Shown in pieces: positions 53,032-64,000 of a stretch of 64,000 nucleotides of DNA; the first letter of the stretch is position 1; every line of letters begins with the position of its first letter. Location: positions 24,898-88,897 of the forward strand of contig VXNK01000149.1 of NCBI GenBank assembly GCA_009840595.1, given 5' to 3'. This stretch comes from Rhodospirillaceae bacterium (lineage in GTDB: Bacteria; Pseudomonadota; Alphaproteobacteria; Bin65). The notes below the pieces were generated by a model that worked only from the letters and a program-made list of their open reading frames with translations, made no database searches and was not told the origin of the DNA. Position numbers and translations under genes: made by a program.

Positions 53032-53548
53032 GGCCCGGCGGCATTTCGTTCGCCGCGTTCCAGCGACTCGTTCTTTTCGAGGTCGGCCGCGGGTTACCGC
53101 GGTCTGCGCCGGGAACCTGCCGGCAGAAGATTTGCCGCTTGCGATTCGCGCCGGAAGCTTCGCCGCGGGTTTGCACGCCGGAACGCACTACAGCAGGGCG
53201 AAACATTTGAATTTCTTATCGGCAATATGATTAAGCTGTCTTGGACAATATATGACAATATTGCCTAATTTTCGCCCTATCGGTCGATGCCGCGGCTTTC
53301 CCGAAGATGGAGGTGCCGACATGCAAAGTTCGCAATTCTTCGGAACGCGAACGGCGACGGATTCGGCTCGGCGCAACGACCGCCGCGATGCCGGCCGGAA
53401 AATGCGCAGCAGTATCGGCAGGACCCTGGAAACGAAATCGGGGCCGGTATCCCGCGGCTTCGGTTTGGACCCGCGGTCCCTCTAGCGGAGCATTTGGCAG
53501 ATATCGGCCTCGATGACCTCAGGATCGAGCATACCGCAGGACGCATCG
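53032..53548. other. Region between rplI and the sterol operon
   Basis: 517 bases with no convincing gene. It contains an AT-rich segment (53200-53275) with a palindrome and repeated ACAATAT, the likely promoter of the sterol operon. A 77-codon frame at 53252 has no ribosome site or family and is not called. Confidence 0.5.
53221..53255. promoter_or_regulatory. Inverted repeat and direct repeats upstream of the sterol operon
   Basis: GGCAATAT (53221-53228) and ATATTGCC (53248-53255) are 8-bp inverted arms separated by 19 bases. Inside, ACAATAT occurs twice ten bases apart. The area is AT-rich, so it can hold a promoter with an operator. Regulator unknown. Confidence 0.5.
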
Positions 53549-54673
53549 ATGGAGCCGGTTTTCGTTACCGGTGCGGCCGGGCATGTCGGCGCCAACCTCG
53601 TGCGCCGGCTGCTCGACGAGGGCGTGCCGGTCCGGGTGTTGCTGCGACCGGAGGACAACAACGAGGGACTGGACGGCCTCGACGTCGAGCGCGCGTTCGG
53701 GGACCTTCGGGACCTTGAGGCCACCAAGGCGGCGCTTGCGGGATGCCGGGGCGTTTACCACTGCGCGGCCTACGTCTCGACCATCGAAGGCAACCGTGCG
53801 CATCGCCGGGACCTGTTCGAGTGCAACGTGCTCGGCACCCGCAACGTGCTGCTGGCGGCCCGGGAAGCGGAGGCCGGCCGGGTCGTGGTCACGGGCTCGT
53901 TCAGCGCGGTCGGGTACGATCTCGACGATCCGTCGGCCCCCAGCAACGAAACCATGCAATTCTACCCCATGGAACGCACGATGCCCTACGAGCGCAGCAA
54001 GTCGCTCGTCGAGCAGGAGTGCTGGCGCGCCGCCGCCGCGGGCCAGGATGTTGTGGTCGCGACATGCTGTGCGGTGGTCGGGGGCGCCGATTTCTTTCCG
54101 TCGCGACTGGGCAGAACCCTGTGCGACTACACCAACGGCAAACTCCGCGCCTATATCGACGGCGGCTTCGAATTCGTCGCGGCGCGCGACATCGTCGAAG
54201 GGCATCTGTTGTGCATGCGCCACGGCCGCTCGGGCGAAAAGTACATTTTCAGCAGCGAGTACAAGACGATCTCGGAAATCCTGGATCTGTATGAAGAAGT
54301 AACGGGCGTGCCGCGGCCGCGCCGCCGGATTCCAACCCGCCTGATGCTCGTTTTCTCGGAAGTGGCAAGCTTTTACCTGAGCCGGTTCCACCCGGACTTT
54401 CCCCAGCGCTTCACCCCCGGCGCCATCCGCCTGCTGCAAAAATGCCGACACGCCGACACGAGCAAGGCGAGGCGGGAACTCGACTATCGGCCGACCACCA
54501 TCCTCGACGCAGTCCATGAAGCCTACGCCTTTCATTACAACCGCAACGCGATCGCCAACCTGAACGCGAAACGCCCGCGCACAGTCGCCGCGGATCGCCC
54601 TGCTGCGAAGCGAGAGGGGAATACCGCGCCGGACCGGGACAGGCGGATGATGCCCGACGGGAGCCCGACATGA
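53549..54673 (+). CDS. NAD(P)-dependent epimerase/3beta-hydroxysteroid dehydrogenase-like SDR
   Basis: A 374-residue extended SDR. TGAAGHVG (T7, G8, G11, G14) binds the dinucleotide; GDLRD and CAAYVST follow; the catalytic pair is Y147/K151 in PYERSKS. It resembles HpnA-type epimerases and 3beta-HSD/sterol-4-carboxylate dehydrogenases. In this operon, ahead of a Rieske oxygenase, a role in C-4 demethylation (SdmB-like) is plausible. A hydrophobic, membrane-associating stretch (LMLVFSEVASFYLS) lies near residue 270. The ATG at 53549 with CAGGA seven bases upstream is preferred to the ATG at 53513. Confidence 0.82.
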   Translation: MEPVFVTGAAGHVGANLVRRLLDEGVPVRVLLRPEDNNEGLDGLDVERAFGDLRDLEATKAALAGCRGVYHCAAYVSTIEGNRAHRRDLFECNVLGTRNVLLAAREAEAGRVVVTGSFSAVGYDLDDPSAPSNETMQFYPMERTMPYERSKSLVEQECWRAAAAGQDVVVATCCAVVGGADFFPSRLGRTLCDYTNGKLRAYIDGGFEFVAARDIVEGHLLCMRHGRSGEKYIFSSEYKTISEILDLYEEVTGVPRPRRRIPTRLMLVFSEVASFYLSRFHPDFPQRFTPGAIRLLQKCRHADTSKARRELDYRPTTILDAVHEAYAFHYNRNAIANLNAKRPRTVAADRPAAKREGNTAPDRDRRMMPDGSPT

Positions 54674-55767
54674 CGCCGGCGCCAGATGCGCCGCCCGGCT
54701 TCGAAACCGCCGGCACCCTGCGTCAGCAGGCGCGCGCCGCGGGTATGGATCCGAATTATTGGTATGCGGTCGAAGAAGTGCGCCGGGTCAAGCCGGGTTC
54801 GGTCGTCGAGGTCGTTTTCTGGAAGCATTCCATTGCGCTGTTCCGGGGAGCGGACGGCAAGTTCCAGGCAGTCGAGAATCGCTGCGCGCATCGCCAGCTC
54901 AAACTCTCCATCGGCGACGTGAAGGGATGCCGGCTCGTCTGCGCCTACCATGGCTGGGAATATGGCGGCGAAGGGCGCCCGCCGGGGGTTCCTTACGATA
55001 CCGACGGACGGGGCATGCCACGGCTCGCGATCAGGACCTATCCGGTGAAGATCCGCTACGGCCTGGTCTGGCTCTTCCCCGGCGATCCGGAACTGGCGGA
55101 GGAGCGCCGGATCCCGGACATCCCGGAGCTCGAGGGGCCCGGCCGATGGGCCTGCGTGCCGCTGCGCTTTACCTGGTCGGCGCACCATTCGATGGTGATC
55201 GACAATGTGAGCGACTTCACCCACGCCCATCTGCACCGCCGCTACCGTCCCTTTGACGGGGCCAACCTCACCCGCTGCGAGACGGTCGGCGACAATGTGC
55301 ATCTGTCCTACGACACGCGGGTCGGGCGCGGGCGCATCTCCGGGCTGTTCGTCGACCACAAGCGGCTCAATACCAACCGCATGGAGCTCTGCTACGAATA
55401 TCCCTACCAGTGGTCGAACACCGACGATTCGATCAAGCACTGGCTTTTCGTTTTGCCGATGGACGAGCGCACCACCCGGGTGTTCTTCCTGTTCTACTTC
55501 GAGTCGCTGAAAATCCCCTTGCTGCCGGTGCGCATTCCCCGCTTCGCCATGACCGCGGTCATGAAAATCTCCAACCGCCTGCTTATCGCGCCCCTGCTCT
55601 CCCAGGACCGGTTTGCGCTCGAAGCGGAGCAGGAAGGGTATGAAGAACATTGGGACGCCCGTCCCTACGAGTTCAATCCGGTAGTGCAGGCGTTTCAGGA
55701 AGTGACCGTGCGCAAGTGGCGCGAGCATCTGGCGAACGGTTCGGGGAACGGCGATGCCCGCGGCTGA
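54670..55767 (+). CDS. Rieske non-haem iron oxygenase, possible sterol C-4 demethylase (SdmA-like)
   Basis: A 365-residue oxygenase. The Rieske [2Fe-2S] site is CAHR (C72, H74) and CAYHGW (C91, H94); the mononuclear iron site is in DNVSDFTHAHLH (D182, H185, H189 region). The C-terminal part carries hydrophobic stretches near residues 268-300, hinting at membrane contact. Overlaps the SDR stop by four bases. In Methylococcus capsulatus SdmA/SdmB demethylate C-4 using this enzyme pair; whether this protein does so is inferred from context. Another sterol oxidation, for example C-7 desaturation, remains possible. Confidence 0.85.
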   Translation: MTPAPDAPPGFETAGTLRQQARAAGMDPNYWYAVEEVRRVKPGSVVEVVFWKHSIALFRGADGKFQAVENRCAHRQLKLSIGDVKGCRLVCAYHGWEYGGEGRPPGVPYDTDGRGMPRLAIRTYPVKIRYGLVWLFPGDPELAEERRIPDIPELEGPGRWACVPLRFTWSAHHSMVIDNVSDFTHAHLHRRYRPFDGANLTRCETVGDNVHLSYDTRVGRGRISGLFVDHKRLNTNRMELCYEYPYQWSNTDDSIKHWLFVLPMDERTTRVFFLFYFESLKIPLLPVRIPRFAMTAVMKISNRLLIAPLLSQDRFALEAEQEGYEEHWDARPYEFNPVVQAFQEVTVRKWREHLANGSGNGDARG

Positions 55768-56854
55768 GCCGTTCGTCCAGCTGTCGGCGCTGTCGGGCGA
55801 AGTCTTGCTCGCAGCGGCAGCGATGGCGGTGGGGTTTGTCGCCCTGTTGTTCCTGGGTTCGGCACTCCTGCCGGGCCGCCGGATCGAGGGCCCGGACGCC
55901 GACGGAAAACAGCGCGTCTACAAGCTCAACGGCCTAGCCCTGTTCCTGATCGCCGCGGCTGCGGCAGGTCTTGCCCAGGCCTTCGGCTGGTTCTCGCTCT
56001 CGGTGCTCCATACCCACTTCGTCGCCCTGTTCGTGGCGGCAAACGTATTCGCCTTCGCTCTCTCGGGCTGGCTGTATTTCCAAGGGGTACGCGCGCGTCG
56101 GGCCGCACCGGGGGCCTGGCGGGGATTCTTCTACGGCGTGGAGGCCGGGCCGATCTGGTTCGGGCTGGATCTGAAGCTCTTCAGCTACCGCCCCTCGCTC
56201 ATCGGACTGGCGCTGTTCAATGCGTCCTTTGCCGCCGTGCAGTACGAAACCTACGGCGGTCTCACCCTGGCGATGGCGCTCTACCAGATTTTCACCTTCC
56301 TCTATGTGCTCAACTACTTCCAGTTCGAACACGGCATGATCCACACCTGGGACATCGTCAGCGAGCGTTTCGGGTGGATGCTGGTCTGGGGCGATTACGT
56401 CCTGGTGCCGTTTTTCTACTGCCTCCCCGGCTGGTGGCTGGTTCACGCGCCCGATCCGCTGTCGCCGGCCGCGGCGGCGGCGATCGTCCTGTTGTTCGTC
56501 TTCGGCTTCTGGCTCTTCCGCGGCGCCAACCAGCAGAAGCACCGCTTCAAGCGCGATCCCAACATCACGATCTGGGGGCAACCCGCCCGGACGCTGGACG
56601 GGCGCCTCCTGGTGTCCGGATTCTGGGGCATCGGACGGCATCTCAACTATACCGGCGAAATTTGCGTCTATTTCGCATTCGCCCTCACGACCGGCCTCGC
56701 CTCCTGGGTTCCCTACCTGTTGCCGGCATGGCTGGCGTCTCTGCTGTGGCACCGTTCGATACGCGACGAGCACCGCTGCCGGGCCAAGTATGGCGCGCTG
56801 TGGGAGCGCTACACGCAGCGGGCGCGCTTCTCGATGCTGCCGTTCATTCATTGA
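55754..56854 (+). CDS. Sterol C-14 reductase, ERG24/TM7SF2 family
   Basis: A 366-residue membrane protein with eight to nine helices. The family end is unmistakable: LNYTGEICVYFAFALTTG near residue 298 and RDEHRCRAKYGALWERYTQRARFSMLPFIH at the C-terminus, matching the HPNYxGD and RDExxCxxKYGxxWxxYCxxV blocks of ERG24/DHCR7/ERG4. FGWMLVWGDYVLVPFFYCLPGWWLV near residue 205 is the conserved middle. It would reduce the C14-C15 double bond left by CYP51, using NADPH. Overlaps the Rieske gene by 14 bases. Delta-7 or C-24 reduction is the alternative within the family. Confidence 0.88.
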   Translation: MPAAEPFVQLSALSGEVLLAAAAMAVGFVALLFLGSALLPGRRIEGPDADGKQRVYKLNGLALFLIAAAAAGLAQAFGWFSLSVLHTHFVALFVAANVFAFALSGWLYFQGVRARRAAPGAWRGFFYGVEAGPIWFGLDLKLFSYRPSLIGLALFNASFAAVQYETYGGLTLAMALYQIFTFLYVLNYFQFEHGMIHTWDIVSERFGWMLVWGDYVLVPFFYCLPGWWLVHAPDPLSPAAAAAIVLLFVFGFWLFRGANQQKHRFKRDPNITIWGQPARTLDGRLLVSGFWGIGRHLNYTGEICVYFAFALTTGLASWVPYLLPAWLASLLWHRSIRDEHRCRAKYGALWERYTQRARFSMLPFIH

Positions 56855-56862
56855 GCGCGGAG

Positions 56863-58272
56863 ATGGCAAACCGGTCCGACAGCCTGGCGACACCGGATAC
56901 CGCGGCGCTTCCGCAGCGAGCGGCGAAGGCCGCCCCCCGGCTCGCGGGCGGATGGCCGCTGATCGGCCAGCTGCCGGAATTTCAAAGGGATCCGGTCGCC
57001 ATGTTGAGCCGCGGCTGGCGCGAGCACGGCGATCTCTTCCGCTTCCGGATCGGCCCCCGCGACTTCGCTCTCTTCACCGGGCCGGAAGCCCACGATTTCT
57101 ATTTCCGGGCGCCCGAAGAGCAGCTGAACGCCAAGGCCGTCTACCGGTTCACCGTGCCGATTTTCGGGCGCGGCGTGGCCTACGACACGTCTCCGGAGAT
57201 CATGTCGGAGCAGCTGGGATTCCTGTTTCCGGCGCTGCGCGAAGCCAACATGCGCAGATTTGCCCTCATCATGTTCGACGAGGCGCGGCGGTTCGCCGAC
57301 GATCTCGGGGACGGCGGGGAAATCGATCTGCCGCAGGCGCTGAACGAACTTACCGTCAGGATCGCCAGCCGCAGCCTGATCGGACAGGAAGTGCGCGACC
57401 GGGTGGACACCGGATTTGCCGAGGCGTACCGCGATTTGCAGAACGGCATCAACGTCCTGGGGTTTTTTCTTCCCAGGCTGCCGACCGCCGCGCATCGGAG
57501 CCGCGACAGAGCCCGGCGCAAAGTAGCCGATATCTTTAGCGGAATCATGGCGGAGCGCCGGAAGTCTGGGGCCGACCCCGACGATTTCATGCAGACGCTG
57601 ATGAACGCCCGCTACAAGGACGGCCGCGCCCTGACCGACGACGAGATCACCGGCATCCTGCTGACGGTGTTGTTCGCGGGCCAGCACACGAGTGCCGTGC
57701 TCGCGACCTGGACCGGCCTGGAGCTCTTGAGGGCGCCCGCCTATGTCGAACGCATCAGGGACGAGGCGCGGGAGGTCTACGGCGAAGCGGGCGCCATGAG
57801 CTTCGACAGTCTCCAGCGCCAGCCGGCGATGGAAAACGCCGTGCGCGAATGCGAGCGGCTGCACCCGCCGCTGATATTGCTGGTCCGGAAAGTGCTCGAA
57901 CCTCTGCGATACGGGGGCCGCGTCGTGCCCGCCGGCACCATGGCCATGGTGTCGCCGGCGGTATCCCACCGGCTGCCCCACATTTTCGCCGATCCGGAAC
58001 GGTTCGATCCCGACCGTTTCGCGCCGCCGGCCTGCGAGGACAGGCAACATCATTACGCCCTGATCGGTTTCGGCGGCGGCAAGCACGCCTGTATGGGGAA
58101 GAATTTCGCTTACATGCAGCTCAAGGCGATCTGGACCGTTCTGCTCGATCGCTTCGACTTCGTTCTCGACGGCGAATTTCCGCGGCCGAACTACGGCAGC
58201 TGGGTGACGGGACCGGAAACGCCGTGCCGGGTCCGCTACCGCCGCCGCCCGGAGCCGAGCGTTTTCCGATGA
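56863..58272 (+). CDS. cyp51: Sterol 14alpha-demethylase, cytochrome P450 CYP51
   Basis: A 469-residue soluble-type P450 without a membrane anchor. CYP51 hallmarks: FGRGVAYD (Y107), FAGQHTS in helix I (A272-S277), ExxR in VRECERLHPP followed by LIMLMRKV-like LILLVRKV, and the haem loop FGGGKHACMGKNFAYMQLK with C410. It removes the 14alpha-methyl of lanosterol/cycloartenol-type sterols in three oxidations. No fused ferredoxin is present, unlike Methylococcus CYP51; a separate redox partner is needed. Stop overlaps the next ATG. Confidence 0.94.
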   Translation: MANRSDSLATPDTAALPQRAAKAAPRLAGGWPLIGQLPEFQRDPVAMLSRGWREHGDLFRFRIGPRDFALFTGPEAHDFYFRAPEEQLNAKAVYRFTVPIFGRGVAYDTSPEIMSEQLGFLFPALREANMRRFALIMFDEARRFADDLGDGGEIDLPQALNELTVRIASRSLIGQEVRDRVDTGFAEAYRDLQNGINVLGFFLPRLPTAAHRSRDRARRKVADIFSGIMAERRKSGADPDDFMQTLMNARYKDGRALTDDEITGILLTVLFAGQHTSAVLATWTGLELLRAPAYVERIRDEAREVYGEAGAMSFDSLQRQPAMENAVRECERLHPPLILLVRKVLEPLRYGGRVVPAGTMAMVSPAVSHRLPHIFADPERFDPDRFAPPACEDRQHHYALIGFGGGKHACMGKNFAYMQLKAIWTVLLDRFDFVLDGEFPRPNYGSWVTGPETPCRVRYRRRPEPSVFR

Positions 58273-61200
58273 GTGCCGCCGCGTCGCGGCAGTACGACGT
58301 CGCCATTGTCGGCGCCGGTCCGGTCGGCAGCCTGTGCGCGCTTGCCCATGCGCGCAAAGGCGCCCGGGTGGCCCTGCTCGAAGCGAATCCGAAAGCGTCC
58401 GGGCGGCTGGCGGGCGAATGGCTGCATCCGCCCGCCGTCCGGATCCTGCGCGACATCGGAATCGATCTCGACTCGCTGGCCCGCACCGCCCCCGGCAAGG
58501 GATTCGTGGTGTTTCCGGAAGACGGCTCCGAGCCGATCGAGCTTCCCTATGCGAGGGAATCCCTGGGTCTGGCATGCGACCATGCGGTGCTCGTCTCGAA
58601 GCTGCGCGAGGCGATCGGCGACCAATCGGATATCGATTTCATCCCGCACGCACGGGTCAACGCGGTCGACGACGAGCGCGTCGCCTATTCCCTGAACGGC
58701 AAGGAACGGTCCCTCACCGCCGCGCGGATTGTCGGCGCCGACGGCCGCGCCTCGGTCGTGCGCAAATCCCTGGGTCTGTCGACCGATCCCATGCTCTGCT
58801 CGCGGATGCTGGGGGTCACTCTGGAAGGGGCGCGCCTGCCGTTCGAGAATTACGGGCATGTGCTGCTCGGCGGGCCGGGGCCGGTCCTCGTATACGGCCT
58901 GGCCGAAGATTGCGTCCGGGTCATCGTCGATGTTCCGCTCGACCGCTGGACGCCCCGCGACCGGGTCGGTTCCCTGTCAGAGGCCTTTGCCGGCCTGCTG
59001 CCGGGCGCGCTCGGCCCGGCGTTCGTCGAAGCGCTGCGGGCCGGACGGTTCCACGCCGCCACCAACCAGTTGCGGCCGCGCGCCACCTACGGAAGCTCCC
59101 GCCGCGTGCTGATCGGCGACGCGGCCGGGCACTACCATCCCATGACCGCGGTCGGAATGACCCTCGGTTTCGGCGATGCGCTTGCGCTCGCCGAAGGCGG
59201 AAAATTCCGCGATTTCGCCAACGGACGTTTCAGGGCGACCCGGGTTCCGGAGTTCCTCGCCTTGGGGCTTTACGAGGTCTTTGCCGATCATCGGGCCGAA
59301 TCGGTCGCGCTCAGGCACGCGATCTACCGGGGCTGGCGGACGAATTCCGTTTACCGGGACCGGACCACGCGCATTCTGGCCTGCGAAGACCGGTCGGCGA
59401 CCGGAATGAGCCTCGCATTCAGCGGAACGATCCTCCGGGCGGTGGCGCGGGAGATTTCGCTGGGCAACCGCCGCCGGGTTTCCTGGCGCCGGGCCCGCGG
59501 CATCTTTCATGCCCTCGCCGTTCGTCTGTGGTGGTTCGTGCGCGGAATTCTCCAGGTGCGCGGAGCGAAAGGCGCGGGCGGGGAAAAGGGCAAACGGGCG
59601 CGCGGCAACCTCGCCCGCGCGTTTCTGTATTCCATGTCCGCGGAGACCCAAACCGCCGGCCCCGCCCGGCCGAAAGAGGCCGAAGCGCCCGATGCCGGCC
59701 CGGCATTGCAGCGCGCGACCGCGCGCCTGTTGAGCGTTCAGGGAGAGGACGGCGCCTGGGAAGGCGAGATGATCTGGTGCCCCATGCTCACCGCGCAATA
59801 TGTGCTGCTGCATCACATTATCGGGCGGCCGCTCGAGCCCGGCCGCCGCCGGCGGGTCCTGCGCTCCTTCGAACGGACCCGGCTGGAAGGCGGCGCGTGG
59901 GGCCTGCACGAACACTCGCCGCCCCATCTGTTCGTCACCGCCCTGGTCTATGCCGCCGCGAGACTGCTCGGCGTCGAGCGCGACGATCCTCTGGTCGTAC
60001 CGGCCCGGCAATTCATCCGGGCTGAGGGAATTCTCGGCATTCCGAGCTGGGGCAAGTTCTGGCTGGCGCTCCTCAATCTCTACGACTGGCGCGGAGTCAA
60101 CGCCGTCCTGCCGGAGCTGTGGCGCCTGCCGCGCCGGATACCGCTGCACCCGTCGAACTGGTATTGCCATACGCGGCTGATCTACATGGCGATGGCGGCG
60201 GTTTATGCGCGCCGTTTCCAGGCGCCCGTCACGCCGGTAATCGAGGCGCTGCGGGAGGAACTGTTCCCCGAAGGCTTTGCGAACGCCGGTTTCTCCGCCG
60301 CCCGCAACCGCCTGCGCGAGGCCGACCTCTATGCGCGGCCGAGCGGGTGGCTCAAGGCCGGATACGGGATCGCGCGGCTGTACGACCGGTTCCACGGCAA
60401 GCGCCTGCGCACCCGGTGCTCGGAAGCGATACGCCAACGCATCAAATGGGAGTTGCAGACCACCAGCCATACCAGCATCTCCCCGGTCAGCGGCCTGCTC
60501 AACATCCTCGCCCTGTGGCTGCACGATCCGGACGACGCCGATTGCCGCCAGGCGCTCGAAAGGCTGGACGGCTGGATCTGGGAAGACGAAGACCGGGGCG
60601 CGCGGGTCGTCGGCGCGCGCAGCGCCTCGTGGGATACCGGATTCGCCCTGCAGGCGCTCGCCGCGACGCCCGGGGCGGACGGCGTTGAAGATGCCCTCCG
60701 GCGCGGCGCCGACTTCCTGTTCGAGCATCAGATCCATGCCAGCTTCGACGGGTTCCGCGAAGCCTACCGGTCCGACCCGAAGGGCGGCTGGTGCTTTGCC
60801 GGCGGCTGGCACGGCTGGCCGGTGAGCGACTGCACGGCGGAAGCAGTGCTCGGAATTCTCGCCGCCGGGCGCGGCTCGGAGAACGCGGCCGCGCTGGGCG
60901 ATGCGGTCGCGTTCATGCTGCGCAGCCAGAACCGCGACGGCGGGTTCGGCAGCTACGAGGCACGCCGCGCGGCATTCGGCCTGGAATGGCTGAACCCGGC
61001 CGAGATGTTCGGCGATTCGATGACCGAGCATTCCTTCGTCGAGTGCACCGCGTCCTGTCTTGCGGCACTGGCCGCTTGCGGGGAGCAGTTTCCCGAAATC
61101 GCGGATGGGGCGGTGACGAGCGCCATCCTCCGGGCCAATTCCTGGCTGCGCCGGACCCAAGCGACCGACGGCTCGTGGCGCGGCGTATGGGGCGTTCAGT

Positions 61201-61685
61201 TCATTTACGGAACCTTGTTCGGGATCCGGGGCCTGCTTGCCGCCGGGGCCCGGCCCGGCGATCCGGCGCTGCGCGCGGCCTGCCGCTGGCTGCTGGACCG
61301 CCAACGGGAGGACGGGGGCTGGGGCGAGCACCACAGCGGCTGCCTGACCGGCCGCTACGTCCCGCACGGGGAAAGCCAGGTCATCCAGACCGCGTGGGCG
61401 ATGATGGCGCTCCTTGAGGCGGGCGAGCCGGACTGGGCCGCGATTTCGCGCGGCGCCCGGTTCCTTATCGATACGCAGGAGGCCGACGGATCGTGGCCGA
61501 AGCAGGACATGGCCGGGGTGTTCTTCCGGACGGCGCTTTTGGACTATGTGCTCTACCGCCAGTATTTCCCGCTGCACGCGCTGGGCCTCTACGAGCAACG
61601 ACGGCGGGACCGGCTCGGCCTGTCCGCCTGCGGTGCCGCTGCCTCCGTCGCGACGTCGCCCGCGCCCGAAGCCGCGGTCGCCTGA
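58269..61685 (+). CDS. Squalene epoxidase-oxidosqualene cyclase fusion protein
   Basis: One 1138-residue polypeptide. Residues 1-455 are a squalene monooxygenase: FAD motif VGAGPVG (G15, G17, G20), GADGRAS (D158), LIGDAAGHYHPMTAVGMT (D284), ending in a helical, basic stretch. From M456 on it is an oxidosqualene cyclase of 683 residues: catalytic DCTAE (D854 in VSDCTAE), WDTGFALQA, several QW motifs and the end AGVFFRTALLDYVLYRQYFPLHALG. DCTAE and not DDTA separates it from squalene-hopene cyclases. No stop or ribosome site lies between the parts; M456 at 59634 has no Shine-Dalgarno sequence. The fusion would couple epoxidation of squalene to cyclisation. Candidate product-setting residues A783, H848 and V852 are discussed as a finding. 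Confidence 0.92.
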   Translation: MSAAASRQYDVAIVGAGPVGSLCALAHARKGARVALLEANPKASGRLAGEWLHPPAVRILRDIGIDLDSLARTAPGKGFVVFPEDGSEPIELPYARESLGLACDHAVLVSKLREAIGDQSDIDFIPHARVNAVDDERVAYSLNGKERSLTAARIVGADGRASVVRKSLGLSTDPMLCSRMLGVTLEGARLPFENYGHVLLGGPGPVLVYGLAEDCVRVIVDVPLDRWTPRDRVGSLSEAFAGLLPGALGPAFVEALRAGRFHAATNQLRPRATYGSSRRVLIGDAAGHYHPMTAVGMTLGFGDALALAEGGKFRDFANGRFRATRVPEFLALGLYEVFADHRAESVALRHAIYRGWRTNSVYRDRTTRILACEDRSATGMSLAFSGTILRAVAREISLGNRRRVSWRRARGIFHALAVRLWWFVRGILQVRGAKGAGGEKGKRARGNLARAFLYSMSAETQTAGPARPKEAEAPDAGPALQRATARLLSVQGEDGAWEGEMIWCPMLTAQYVLLHHIIGRPLEPGRRRRVLRSFERTRLEGGAWGLHEHSPPHLFVTALVYAAARLLGVERDDPLVVPARQFIRAEGILGIPSWGKFWLALLNLYDWRGVNAVLPELWRLPRRIPLHPSNWYCHTRLIYMAMAAVYARRFQAPVTPVIEALREELFPEGFANAGFSAARNRLREADLYARPSGWLKAGYGIARLYDRFHGKRLRTRCSEAIRQRIKWELQTTSHTSISPVSGLLNILALWLHDPDDADCRQALERLDGWIWEDEDRGARVVGARSASWDTGFALQALAATPGADGVEDALRRGADFLFEHQIHASFDGFREAYRSDPKGGWCFAGGWHGWPVSDCTAEAVLGILAAGRGSENAAALGDAVAFMLRSQNRDGGFGSYEARRAAFGLEWLNPAEMFGDSMTEHSFVECTASCLAALAACGEQFPEIADGAVTSAILRANSWLRRTQATDGSWRGVWGVQFIYGTLFGIRGLLAAGARPGDPALRAACRWLLDRQREDGGWGEHHSGCLTGRYVPHGESQVIQTAWAMMALLEAGEPDWAAISRGARFLIDTQEADGSWPKQDMAGVFFRTALLDYVLYRQYFPLHALGLYEQRRRDRLGLSACGAAASVATSPAPEAAVA

Positions 61686-61748: not shown

Positions 61749-62780
61749 TCAGCCTGCCGGGCGCTCCGGCTTGCGAGCCAGGAAGAAGAACATCGGCGTA
61801 AAGATGCCGGACCTGCCGCCTTCGACCAGCGCGTCCGCCGCCCGGTTCAGCAGCGTGCTGACCGCCCGGGTGCCTTCCGGAAACAGCCGCACTCTCTCCC
61901 CGACCCGCAATGTCAGGTTGGTCAGGGCGCGGCCGAACGGTGTGCGCGGAATGCTCGAAAGGCTGAAATCCCGGCCCTGCAAGGCGCGGTACCAGGGCGT
62001 CTGCGGGTCTGATTCGGGCGCGCGGTCGCGCGCTTCGAGAAGCTCGAACCCGGCCGTCCGCAACGCGGCGCAAATCTCGGGCATGGAGGGGATATCCGGC
62101 ATCGCGTCCCCCTCCATGATGTCGTCCCTGATCCGCCGGTGTTCGGCATTGCCGGAATCGAAGCTGTCGGTGAGGCACCACTCGTAGCCGCCGAAACAGG
62201 CGCCCGGACGCAGGACGCGGAAGACCTCGCGGAACGCCGCCGTCTTGTCCGGCGCATGGGGCATGGATTCGATGGCGATGGCGGCGTCGTAACGGTCGTC
62301 ACCTTCGGGAATCTGCATGTAGTCGCCGTGGATGAAGCGGCACAGCGCCTGAACGTCCTTCGTGTGCAGCTTCGCGCGCTCGATCTGGTAGGCGTTGTTG
62401 TTGATGCCGACGAAGCCGGCTCCGGAATGGCGGGCCATGTTGCCCATCGGCCCGCCGACCCCGCATCCCACATCGAGAACCTCCATCCCCGGCTTCAGGG
62501 ACAGCCGGTCGGCGAGATAGTGCTGGTGCCTGAGCAGCGACTCCTTGAAACGCTCGCCGCGGCGCCGGGGTGCGAAGTGGAAGGACTGCCCCCAGCCGAA
62601 CTCGTAGAAATCGGTGACCAGGTCATAATAACGATTGACGAACGACCGGTATTGCTCCCGCCTTTCCGCCGGGCCGGCGTCGTAAATCGCGGTGTAGCCG
62701 TCGACGGTGGATTTTACCTCGTCCGGCGCAAGATTCGCGAGCGAGCGGCCCCCCGGACTCTTGGCGGTATGCTGGTTCAT
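61749..62780 (-). CDS. Sterol C-24 methyltransferase, ERG6/SMT family
   Basis: A 343-residue SAM methyltransferase. YYDLVTDFYEFGWGQSFHF (residues 51-69) is the sterol-binding region I of Erg6, RHQHYLA near 84 follows, SAM motif I is VLDVGCGVGGP (101-111) and NNNAYQIERAK near 131. EWCLTDSFDSGNAEHRRI (near 225) matches the Erg6 middle block. It alkylates C-24 of a delta-24 sterol side chain. Convergent with the cyclase operon. The start at 62780 has only a weak ribosome site. Bacterial SMTs are rare; single or double methylation cannot be told. Confidence 0.92.
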   Translation of the reverse strand: MNQHTAKSPGGRSLANLAPDEVKSTVDGYTAIYDAGPAERREQYRSFVNRYYDLVTDFYEFGWGQSFHFAPRRRGERFKESLLRHQHYLADRLSLKPGMEVLDVGCGVGGPMGNMARHSGAGFVGINNNAYQIERAKLHTKDVQALCRFIHGDYMQIPEGDDRYDAAIAIESMPHAPDKTAAFREVFRVLRPGACFGGYEWCLTDSFDSGNAEHRRIRDDIMEGDAMPDIPSMPEICAALRTAGFELLEARDRAPESDPQTPWYRALQGRDFSLSSIPRTPFGRALTNLTLRVGERVRLFPEGTRAVSTLLNRAADALVEGGRSGIFTPMFFFLARKPERPAG

Positions 62781-62971
62781 TCCAACATTCTGCCAGAGCC
62801 GCACAACTTCCCCAAGACCGGAATTTTCCAGACGCCGCAATATCTTGCGCCGCGGCGCCGAAATCGAAAACGCCCTTCCGGAGCGCGGCAGGTTTGTCCG
62901 GGGCGCAGGACGCGTCGACGGATACAATGCGGCCAGCGGCAACGCCGGACATTCAGCAGGGACCGGAGAGC

Positions 62972-63706
62972 ATGCCCGAAGACCGAGCCGACCGAGCGCC
63001 TTCCGAAGCCGCCACGCGCCCGGCCGGGCCGGCGATACCGGCCGCGCTGCTCGCAGCGCTGGCCATCGCGCTCCTGACCGCGGCCGGCACCGGCGCACGC
63101 TACTGGTTCCGCGGGGATTTCGGCGCCGTCCACGCCCTGCTGGTCCTGTTCTTCTCGATCAATCTGTGGATCTGCTATTGGGAGATATGCCTGTTCCTCC
63201 GGCGCGATTATGTCGAGCGGCGTGTCGCATACTGGCGCGGGCGCCAGCGCGAAACGGGCCGGAAACCGGTCATCGACTTCCTGACCTCGAAGGTTCCGCT
63301 GGCGAAGGTGTTGTCGCCGACGGTCTGGGCCGATGTCTGGGCGGCCTACGCGGAGATCGACGAGTCCTTCGCCGACCGGCGGGCCCACGGCTACAACGTG
63401 GATATCGCCAACGGCTTCGTGACCCCGGTCCCGATCCTGGTCCTCTACGCCGCCTACACCTTCGGGATCCTGCCCGCCCCGGCCGCCGGCATTATCGGCG
63501 CGATGCTGTTCTGGCAACTGTGGTACGCAACCCTGGTCTATTGGATCGGTTTCTTCGGGGCCGGCCGGCAATCCCGGATCGGCCGAAAGGACCGGTATAT
63601 CTACATCTGGGCGCCGAACACCCCATGGGTGCTGTTCTCGCTGCTGGGCCTCTATGTCTCCATCCGCCTGATCGTGGACGGCGACTACGGCGTTCTGGGT
63701 TACTGA
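62972..63706 (+). CDS. Five-helix membrane protein, possibly emopamil-binding/sterol isomerase-like
   Basis: A 244-residue protein with hydrophobic segments near residues 19-40, 50-75, 148-166, 172-196 and 212-236. Features reminiscent of EBP (delta8-delta7 sterol isomerase, EXPERA fold): a WEICLF-containing second helix with a Glu, VWADVWAAYAEIDESF in the loop that looks like LWKEYAKGDSRY, and NTPW (N216, W219) at the last helix matching the N-x-x-W pair of EBP. The similarity is judged by eye and is weak. ATG at 62972 with GGAGAG four bases upstream. Next to the sterol methyltransferase and divergent from it. It could be an unrelated membrane protein. Confidence 0.5.
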   Translation: MPEDRADRAPSEAATRPAGPAIPAALLAALAIALLTAAGTGARYWFRGDFGAVHALLVLFFSINLWICYWEICLFLRRDYVERRVAYWRGRQRETGRKPVIDFLTSKVPLAKVLSPTVWADVWAAYAEIDESFADRRAHGYNVDIANGFVTPVPILVLYAAYTFGILPAPAAGIIGAMLFWQLWYATLVYWIGFFGAGRQSRIGRKDRYIYIWAPNTPWVLFSLLGLYVSIRLIVDGDYGVLGY

Positions 63707-63892: not shown

Positions 63893-64000
63893 CCGCCCCG
63901 CCCCCGTGGGGGGGGGCGGGGGCGGGGTGGTCGGGGGCGGCGGCCCGCCACGACCCCCCCCCCCGCCCGGCCCCAAAAAACAAAAAGAAAGAATATATTT
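63893..64000. other. Low-complexity contig end
   Basis: Long G and C homopolymers (GGGGGGGGGCGGGGG, CCCCCCCCCGCCC) then an A-rich tail. It is unlike the rest of the genome and probably an assembly or read-end artefact. Confidence 0.6.

Follow-up and report, generated by a model that had tools for sequence, protein, structure and literature searches.

Can one bacterial protein carry the first two steps of sterol synthesis, the epoxidation of squalene and the cyclisation of the resulting 2,3-oxidosqualene? The question is raised by a gene in a stretch of 64,000 nucleotides from a Rhodospirillaceae bacterium (assembly GCA_009840595.1, contig VXNK01000149.1, positions 24,898 to 88,897 of the forward strand), hereafter called the window. 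An earlier sequence-only reading of this DNA had noticed a squalene epoxidase (SQE) and an oxidosqualene cyclase (OSC) fused in one polypeptide of 1138 residues in a sterol context. From the sequence and a predicted structure, we consider it very likely that this single frame encodes a whole epoxidase and a whole cyclase, and that its product turns squalene into a lanosterol-type sterol as the entry enzyme of an operon.

The frame translated without a stop over all 1138 codons, and the Pfam domains of both enzymes were found above their cut-offs: FAD_binding_3 (residues 9-308) and SE (PF08491, residues 154-309, 73.6 bits compared with a cut-off of 20.1) in the N-terminal half, and SQHop_cyclase_N (481-775) and SQHop_cyclase_C (785-1109) in the C-terminal half. 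The uninterrupted SQE-OSC frame described by the sequence-only reading is thus borne out. Sequence comparison with the PDB matched residues 7-304 to human squalene monooxygenase (E 1.7e-25) and residues 486-1115 to human lanosterol synthase (E 5.2e-136). In the predicted model of the whole chain, which had a predicted local distance difference test (pLDDT) value of 81.7 and a predicted template modelling score (pTM) of 0.85, the matches to human SQLE and human OSC covered nearly the whole catalytic lengths. The epoxidase half showed the SQLE fold including its C-terminal helices, as well as the SE domain and the flavin adenine dinucleotide (FAD) motifs GxGxxG, DG and GD. DCTAE is the acid motif of OSC and DXDD that of hopene cyclases; the cyclase half contains DCTAE together with the OSC fold, rather than DXDD.

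Comparison of 198 aligned fused sequences revealed that the motif residues named in the sequence-only reading are indeed fixed or nearly so (G15 in 197 and G17 in 196 sequences; D158, H290, P291, D854, and C855 in every one). Invariant throughout were D158, G283, D284, H290, H634, W788, V852, D854, C855, E858, and C926. The 198 rows are not all independent and likely include repeats; dereplication at 85% identity left 91 rows, and the probable duplicate records L003 and L032, as well as L004 and L033, are counted both here and among the 86 loci used below for gene context. Before these counts, six of 83 loci had been dropped, namely four short loci as well as L045 and L089, whose cyclase halves contain stops. 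Judged by alignment and model, both enzyme halves of the fused protein are whole and their motif residues are conserved.

The window's genome is a draft of 168 contigs, in which a misassembly or a base-calling slip might have merged two genes into one frame. The open fused frame was present in three of the six other genomes of the genus (G003, 91% identity; G005, 85%; G006, 78%), in 120 listed proteins, and in related loci, 79 of 83 of which were free of stops across the matched stretch by the script's rule. The remaining four loci carried either a single stop at most 10 codons from the end of the match (L081 and L100) or a stop inside the cyclase half (L045 and L089). Independent assemblies carrying the same open frame rule out such a slip, to which we give practically no chance. 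In the other three genomes of the genus (G001, G002, and G004) a cyclase of this Pfam family was not found. They do hold homologues of the sterol methyltransferase; of the five matches (42-54% identity), four contain an in-frame stop. Because methyltransferase homologues are present and a cyclase match is absent, these bacteria may alkylate sterols taken from the host.

The two halves are connected by a segment of about 38 residues, of which residues 460-469 fell below a pLDDT of 50 in the model. Its variable part (457-472) was exactly 16 residues long in 175 of 198 rows, and column conservation over the 91 dereplicated rows was 0.42 in this part versus 0.755 and 0.828 in the two cores. By these alignments the linker varies freely in sequence but hardly at all in length. 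The pairwise distances of the two halves were correlated (Mantel r 0.816, none of 999 permutations as high, 91 rows), as expected if the halves travel together. The joining segment also contains an ATG at position 59634 (M456), from which a second, shorter cyclase might start, so that one gene would give two proteins. Methionine occupies this position in 150 of 198 rows, and some listed relatives (P0123 and P0124) are called as stand-alone cyclases with starts near M456. However, the other 48 rows have Ile (39), Val (6), or Leu (3), the Val and Leu codons possibly being GTG or TTG; the preceding S455 is more constant still (195 of 198); and a ribosome-binding-like stretch was not seen in the 30 bases upstream of the ATG. 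The variability of M456 and the lack of a ribosome-binding-like stretch leave an internal restart unsupported, and we regard it as quite improbable.

The same fusion, for which the sequence-only reading had proposed a search of related genomes, turned up well beyond the three carriers in the genus. A protein search gave 848 matches; the 120 listed were all 1104-1162 residues long with the domains of both halves. A scan of named genomes gave 135 encoding loci, and the best 80 were retained. The record titles of 76 of these 80 named nine phyla (Pseudomonadota 44, Chloroflexota 8, Actinomycetota 7, Nitrospirota 6, Gemmatimonadota 3, and Binatota, Acidobacteriota, Rhodothermota, and Bacteroidota 2 each), and four were without a phylum. 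Two partial short proteins, P0359 (Myxococcota, 45%) and P0338 (Burkholderiales, 50%), also had the SE and cyclase N-terminal domains together. Isolate names of the form jk18x.. were found on 23 of the 80 named loci and sponge names on two, the other 55 having neither; in the available text of Kelly et al. (2022, PMC9531527) the jk18x naming is used for metagenome-assembled genomes (MAGs) from Ircinia. Some carriers of the fusion are sponge-labelled, and a restriction of the fusion to sponges is not claimed. When a quick tree was built from the window's protein and 74 named fusions, most phyla formed one clade each, with four changes for Pseudomonadota and two for Acidobacteriota; one acidobacterial locus (L072) grouped with Gemmatimonadota and the other (L056) with Actinomycetota, the latter in a group with support of 99. 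Proteins from other phyla were about 58-75% identical to the window's, a level that fits transfer between phyla and the operon transfer reported in the accessible text of Kelly et al. (2022, PMC9531527), although the quick tree on its own is no proof of transfer and mostly keeps phyla together.

Separate versions of the two enzymes exist as well. Searches with each half alone returned pieces of fusions, many stand-alone cyclases (644-652 residues), and many stand-alone epoxidases (about 428-478 residues). From two sets of 120 listed matches, 28 split SQE/OSC pairs, taken to share a contig, were picked by eye; 27 were used in trees, and P0227-P0355, with a partial cyclase of 569 residues, was dropped. 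In the printed pairs the break falls in the variable linker, and the two proteins together account for almost all of the fused sequence. In one further locus (L113), recovered by searching the class to which a Dehalococcoidia genome belongs, the two genes were read directly in the DNA: the epoxidase ends with TAG at 1487-1489, followed by the ribosome-binding-like AGGAGAG and by the cyclase ATG at 1501 in a different frame. Separate genes in close relatives, which the sequence-only reading would have taken as refuting a fusion, were seen only further away; within the genus all three carriers were fused.

FastTree trees of the cyclase half and of the epoxidase half (91 fused and 27 split rows) each required four changes of the split state, and well-supported branches alone forced two and three changes, respectively. 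Fused Chloroflexota adjoined a split clade of 22 rows in the cyclase tree (support 90), and the two were separated by a branch of 84 in the epoxidase tree. The simplest reading would be that an older fusion broke apart repeatedly, since L132, a more distant relative that came up when the phylum of a Bryobacterales genome was searched, encodes a fused protein too. Weighing against this direction, stand-alone cyclases fell near L132 in an attempted tree rooted with hopene cyclases. That root was rejected: two of its five rows (the longest frames of L013 and L018), probably wrong frames, had very long branches and fell within the ingroup. The chosen outgroup was not one side of any branch of the cyclase tree, and the failed rooting means that the direction from fused to split is not proven.

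The locus L132/L136 (G809:C22) itself encodes a divergent fused protein (49% identity), and the window's other sterol genes were not found in the 19 kb fetched around it. Among 297 genomes of the same phylum there were three matches, all open frames of more than 1150 codons, and the split form was not found. The 294 genomes of the class of the Dehalococcoidia genome gave 17 matches: 13 open frames of at least 1146 codons, the split L113, two cut by contig ends, and L114 (G630:C74), whose 762-codon cyclase frame begins inside the epoxidase half and may be a break or a further split type. Split cyclases were not found in the 198 genomes searched from the class to which an Acidimicrobiia genome belongs; the only match was the fused copy of that genome itself. 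Our broadest proposal, that the fusion is an ancestral, spreading channelling enzyme, operon-borne across sponge-microbiome phyla, which passes oxidosqualene between its active sites along the membrane, has a set linker length, and was later split several times, as in L113, is tentative and on balance doubtful.

SQLE and OSC are known to rest on membranes. In the proposed mechanism the epoxidase half would take O2 and squalene, the latter supplied by HpnCDE from a different contig, and its FAD would be reduced by a reductase. The epoxide would pass to the cyclase half, where D854 would protonate it and a ring cascade would give a lanosterol-type product, which CYP51, a reductase, SdmA/SdmB, and a methyltransferase would then tailor. 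Because both halves resemble membrane-resting enzymes, the hydrophobic epoxide would be made beside the cyclase entrance on a single membrane face, which is the most likely gain of the fusion. Channelling of oxidosqualene in the fused enzyme is plausible. A contender only somewhat weaker than an even bet is that the fusion gives fixed stoichiometry and co-expression without a direct hand-over of the epoxide, the halves acting as independent membrane enzymes. The split two-gene versions, with their repeated changes on both half trees, and the predicted disorder of linker residues 460-469 are in line with this; the 16-residue length kept by most linkers argues against it, and the pTM of the whole chain hints at a defined arrangement.

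The product of the cyclase half might also differ from lanosterol. By pairwise alignment V852 falls on V453 of human OSC, which we take to be a lanosterol-type site, whereas A783 lies near human T381 and H848 at human C449, positions presumed to determine the product. Since both residues depart from the human enzyme, lanosterol is not the only conceivable product; cycloartenol, parkeol, or a pentacycle would be alternatives. We judge these rather unlikely, since the lanosterol-type V852 is unchanged in all rows, and the neighbouring P450, C-14 reductase, and SdmA/B-like genes would act on lanosterol-type sterols. A lanosterol-type entry enzyme with two linked halves remains the preferred reading. 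Several observations weigh against it: A783 and H848 are, like V852, present in 198 of 198 rows; the score of the fused protein for TIGR03463 (osq_cycl) is below the NCBI cut-off, as are the NCBIfam scores of the SdmA-like and SdmB-like proteins; the split pairs in relatives indicate that linkage is not essential; a PF13243 search of the window's genome (98% estimated completeness) found a cyclase only in the fusion, but G006 of the same genus encodes a separate 669-residue cyclase besides its fusion, and the sole-cyclase state is thus not general; and an activity assay of the fusion was not found in the open-licence literature, as far as its available text goes.

Table 1. The fused gene, its parts, and the neighbouring sterol genes in the window (positions are those of the window).
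Feature	Position	Strand	Basis and remarks
Fused squalene epoxidase-oxidosqualene cyclase	58269..61685	+	1138 aa; open frame, domains, model
Squalene epoxidase half, residues 7-435	58287..59573	+	Model match to human SQLE
Joining segment, residues 436-473 (~38 residues)	59574..59687	+	Model: helix 439-451, then coil; variable part 457-472
Oxidosqualene cyclase half, residues 474-1116, with D854-C855-T-A-E858	59688..61616	+	Model match to human OSC
SdmB-like sterol C-4 demethylation gene, NAD-dependent epimerase fold	53513..54673	+	NF052578 SdmB best NCBIfam, 303 bits, below cut-off of 600; PF01370
SdmA-like 4-methylsterol monooxygenase (Rieske)	54670..55767	+	NF052579 best NCBIfam, 401 bits, below cut-off of 600; PF00355
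Sterol C-14 reductase, ERG4/ERG24 family	55754..56854	+	PF01222, 241 bits
Cytochrome P450, predicted CYP51 (sterol 14-alpha demethylase)	56863..58272	+	PF00067; start chosen in analysis
Sterol C-24 methyltransferase (predicted)	61749..62780	-	PF08498 Sterol_MT_C, PF08241; start chosen in analysis

The sterol context suggested by the sequence-only reading was confirmed by the co-directed run of SdmB-like, SdmA-like, C-14 reductase, P450, and fusion genes and by the methyltransferase on the opposite strand (Table 1). The genes of the run have overlapping or close ends: the SdmA-like start overlaps the SdmB-like stop, and the ATG of the fused gene overlaps the TGA (58270-58272) that ends the P450 gene. 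The window thus has the order SdmB-SdmA-ERG24-CYP51-cyclase with a sterol methyltransferase (SMT) nearby, as in the sponge-symbiont sterol clusters of the msb type and of the CSG (clusters of steroid genes) type. For the P450 an NCBIfam match over cut-off was not found, and the name CYP51 was chosen because this gene order is common to msbD and the CSG operons. The context was compared in 86 loci (L003-L005, L032-L111, and L136-L138), many of which end at contig ends. Homologues of SdmB, SdmA, and ERG24 each lay at most 9.5 kb from the cyclase in 59 loci; P450 matches were near it in 70 (up to five of them weak, 23-38% identity) and methyltransferase matches in 46 (some at 43-55% identity). 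Six Acidimicrobiia loci (L073, L075, L076, L078, L084, and L085) had the fusion alone, with no further sterol gene in the flanks that were fetched; upstream, some of these flanks were short. Next to the methyltransferase, positions 62894-63706 (+) encode a protein of 270 residues for which a Pfam or NCBIfam match was not found and whose homologues, at up to 77% identity, lie near the fusion in 25 of the 86 loci. The last bases of the window (63900-64000) are the end of the contig and translate as a proline- and glycine-rich low-complexity sequence, possibly an assembly edge.

Elsewhere in the window's genome HpnC, HpnD, and HpnE were found over their cut-offs on contig C99, which is not that of the fusion; together with the fusion, they are therefore predicted to lead from farnesyl diphosphate to a cyclised triterpenoid. 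The same search gave a further match of the synthase family, with a stop inside. In G003 three tandem sterol methyltransferase homologues lie beside the fusion (C40:88239-91428; 89, 50, and 49% identity to the window's), the 50% one having a stop. Synthesis of 24-isopropyl sterols needs stepwise methylation, and these tandem genes recall such steps. In G006 (C199:14311-15773) a cyclase fragment with two stops (66% identity to the window's) stands beside a methyltransferase match with two in-frame stops, and from its sequence looks like a decayed second copy of the sterol locus.

Fused and split versions both occur in nature, and with them channelling from the first sterol step to the second can be put to a direct test. 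With a predicted C-24 methyltransferase next to the operon, the fusion also touches the dispute over sponge sterane fossils, on which producers of alkylated sterols in sponges bear, following the argument in the available text of Brown et al. (2023, PMC10070321). Within the literature searched, the near-constant linker length, the count of how widely the fused form occurs, and the split versions found in nature are new; the fusion itself is already in print.

The same two families and reactions are known from Methylococcus capsulatus, but there as separate proteins, SQE MCA2872 (Wei et al., 2016, PMC4919349) and OSC MCA2873 (PMC10070321), according to the portions of these papers available. 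Kelly et al. (2022, PMC9531527) reported the CSGs of Ircinia symbionts from 115 of 537 MAGs in 11 classes and 10 phyla and described their transfer from lineage to lineage. The core ERG24-CYP51-LSS of these clusters resembles that of the window and usually has as neighbours DFR, a hypothetical gene, and either SMT or FDFT1; the main text available does not mention a fusion or name the epoxidase half. Fused SMO/OSC homologs from metagenomes, like the window's protein epoxidase-cyclase fusions, appear once in the methods of a study on sterol gene clusters with methyltransferases, with N-termini trimmed (Brown et al., 2023, PMC10070321), and an analysis of the fusion itself was not found in the accessible part of that paper. 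Closest is MsbE, a fused epoxidase-cyclase of the msb cluster from a gamma-proteobacterial symbiont of the sponge Melophlus sarasinorum, classed as a lanosterol cyclase on the basis of "a key valine", the position of which is not stated in the text available (Mohanty et al., 2020, PMC7074536). The sequence-only reading, which knew of no described SQE-OSC fusion, was mistaken on this point, given MsbE and the homologs of Brown et al. (2023, PMC10070321). As in MsbE, going by that text and not by alignment to the MsbE sequence (MT026193), the cyclase of the window's gene is fused to an epoxidase, and the setting is the same: NAD(P) oxidoreductase, Rieske oxygenase, sterol reductase, C-14 (lanosterol C30) demethylase, and sterol methyltransferase. 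Unlike the gammaproteobacterial host of MsbE, the host here belongs to an alphaproteobacterial genus, judged to include the sponge-derived Rhodospirillaceae Spongia_Bin9 (L033). The window's gene is a further member of an enzyme already described in 2020, not a new enzyme.
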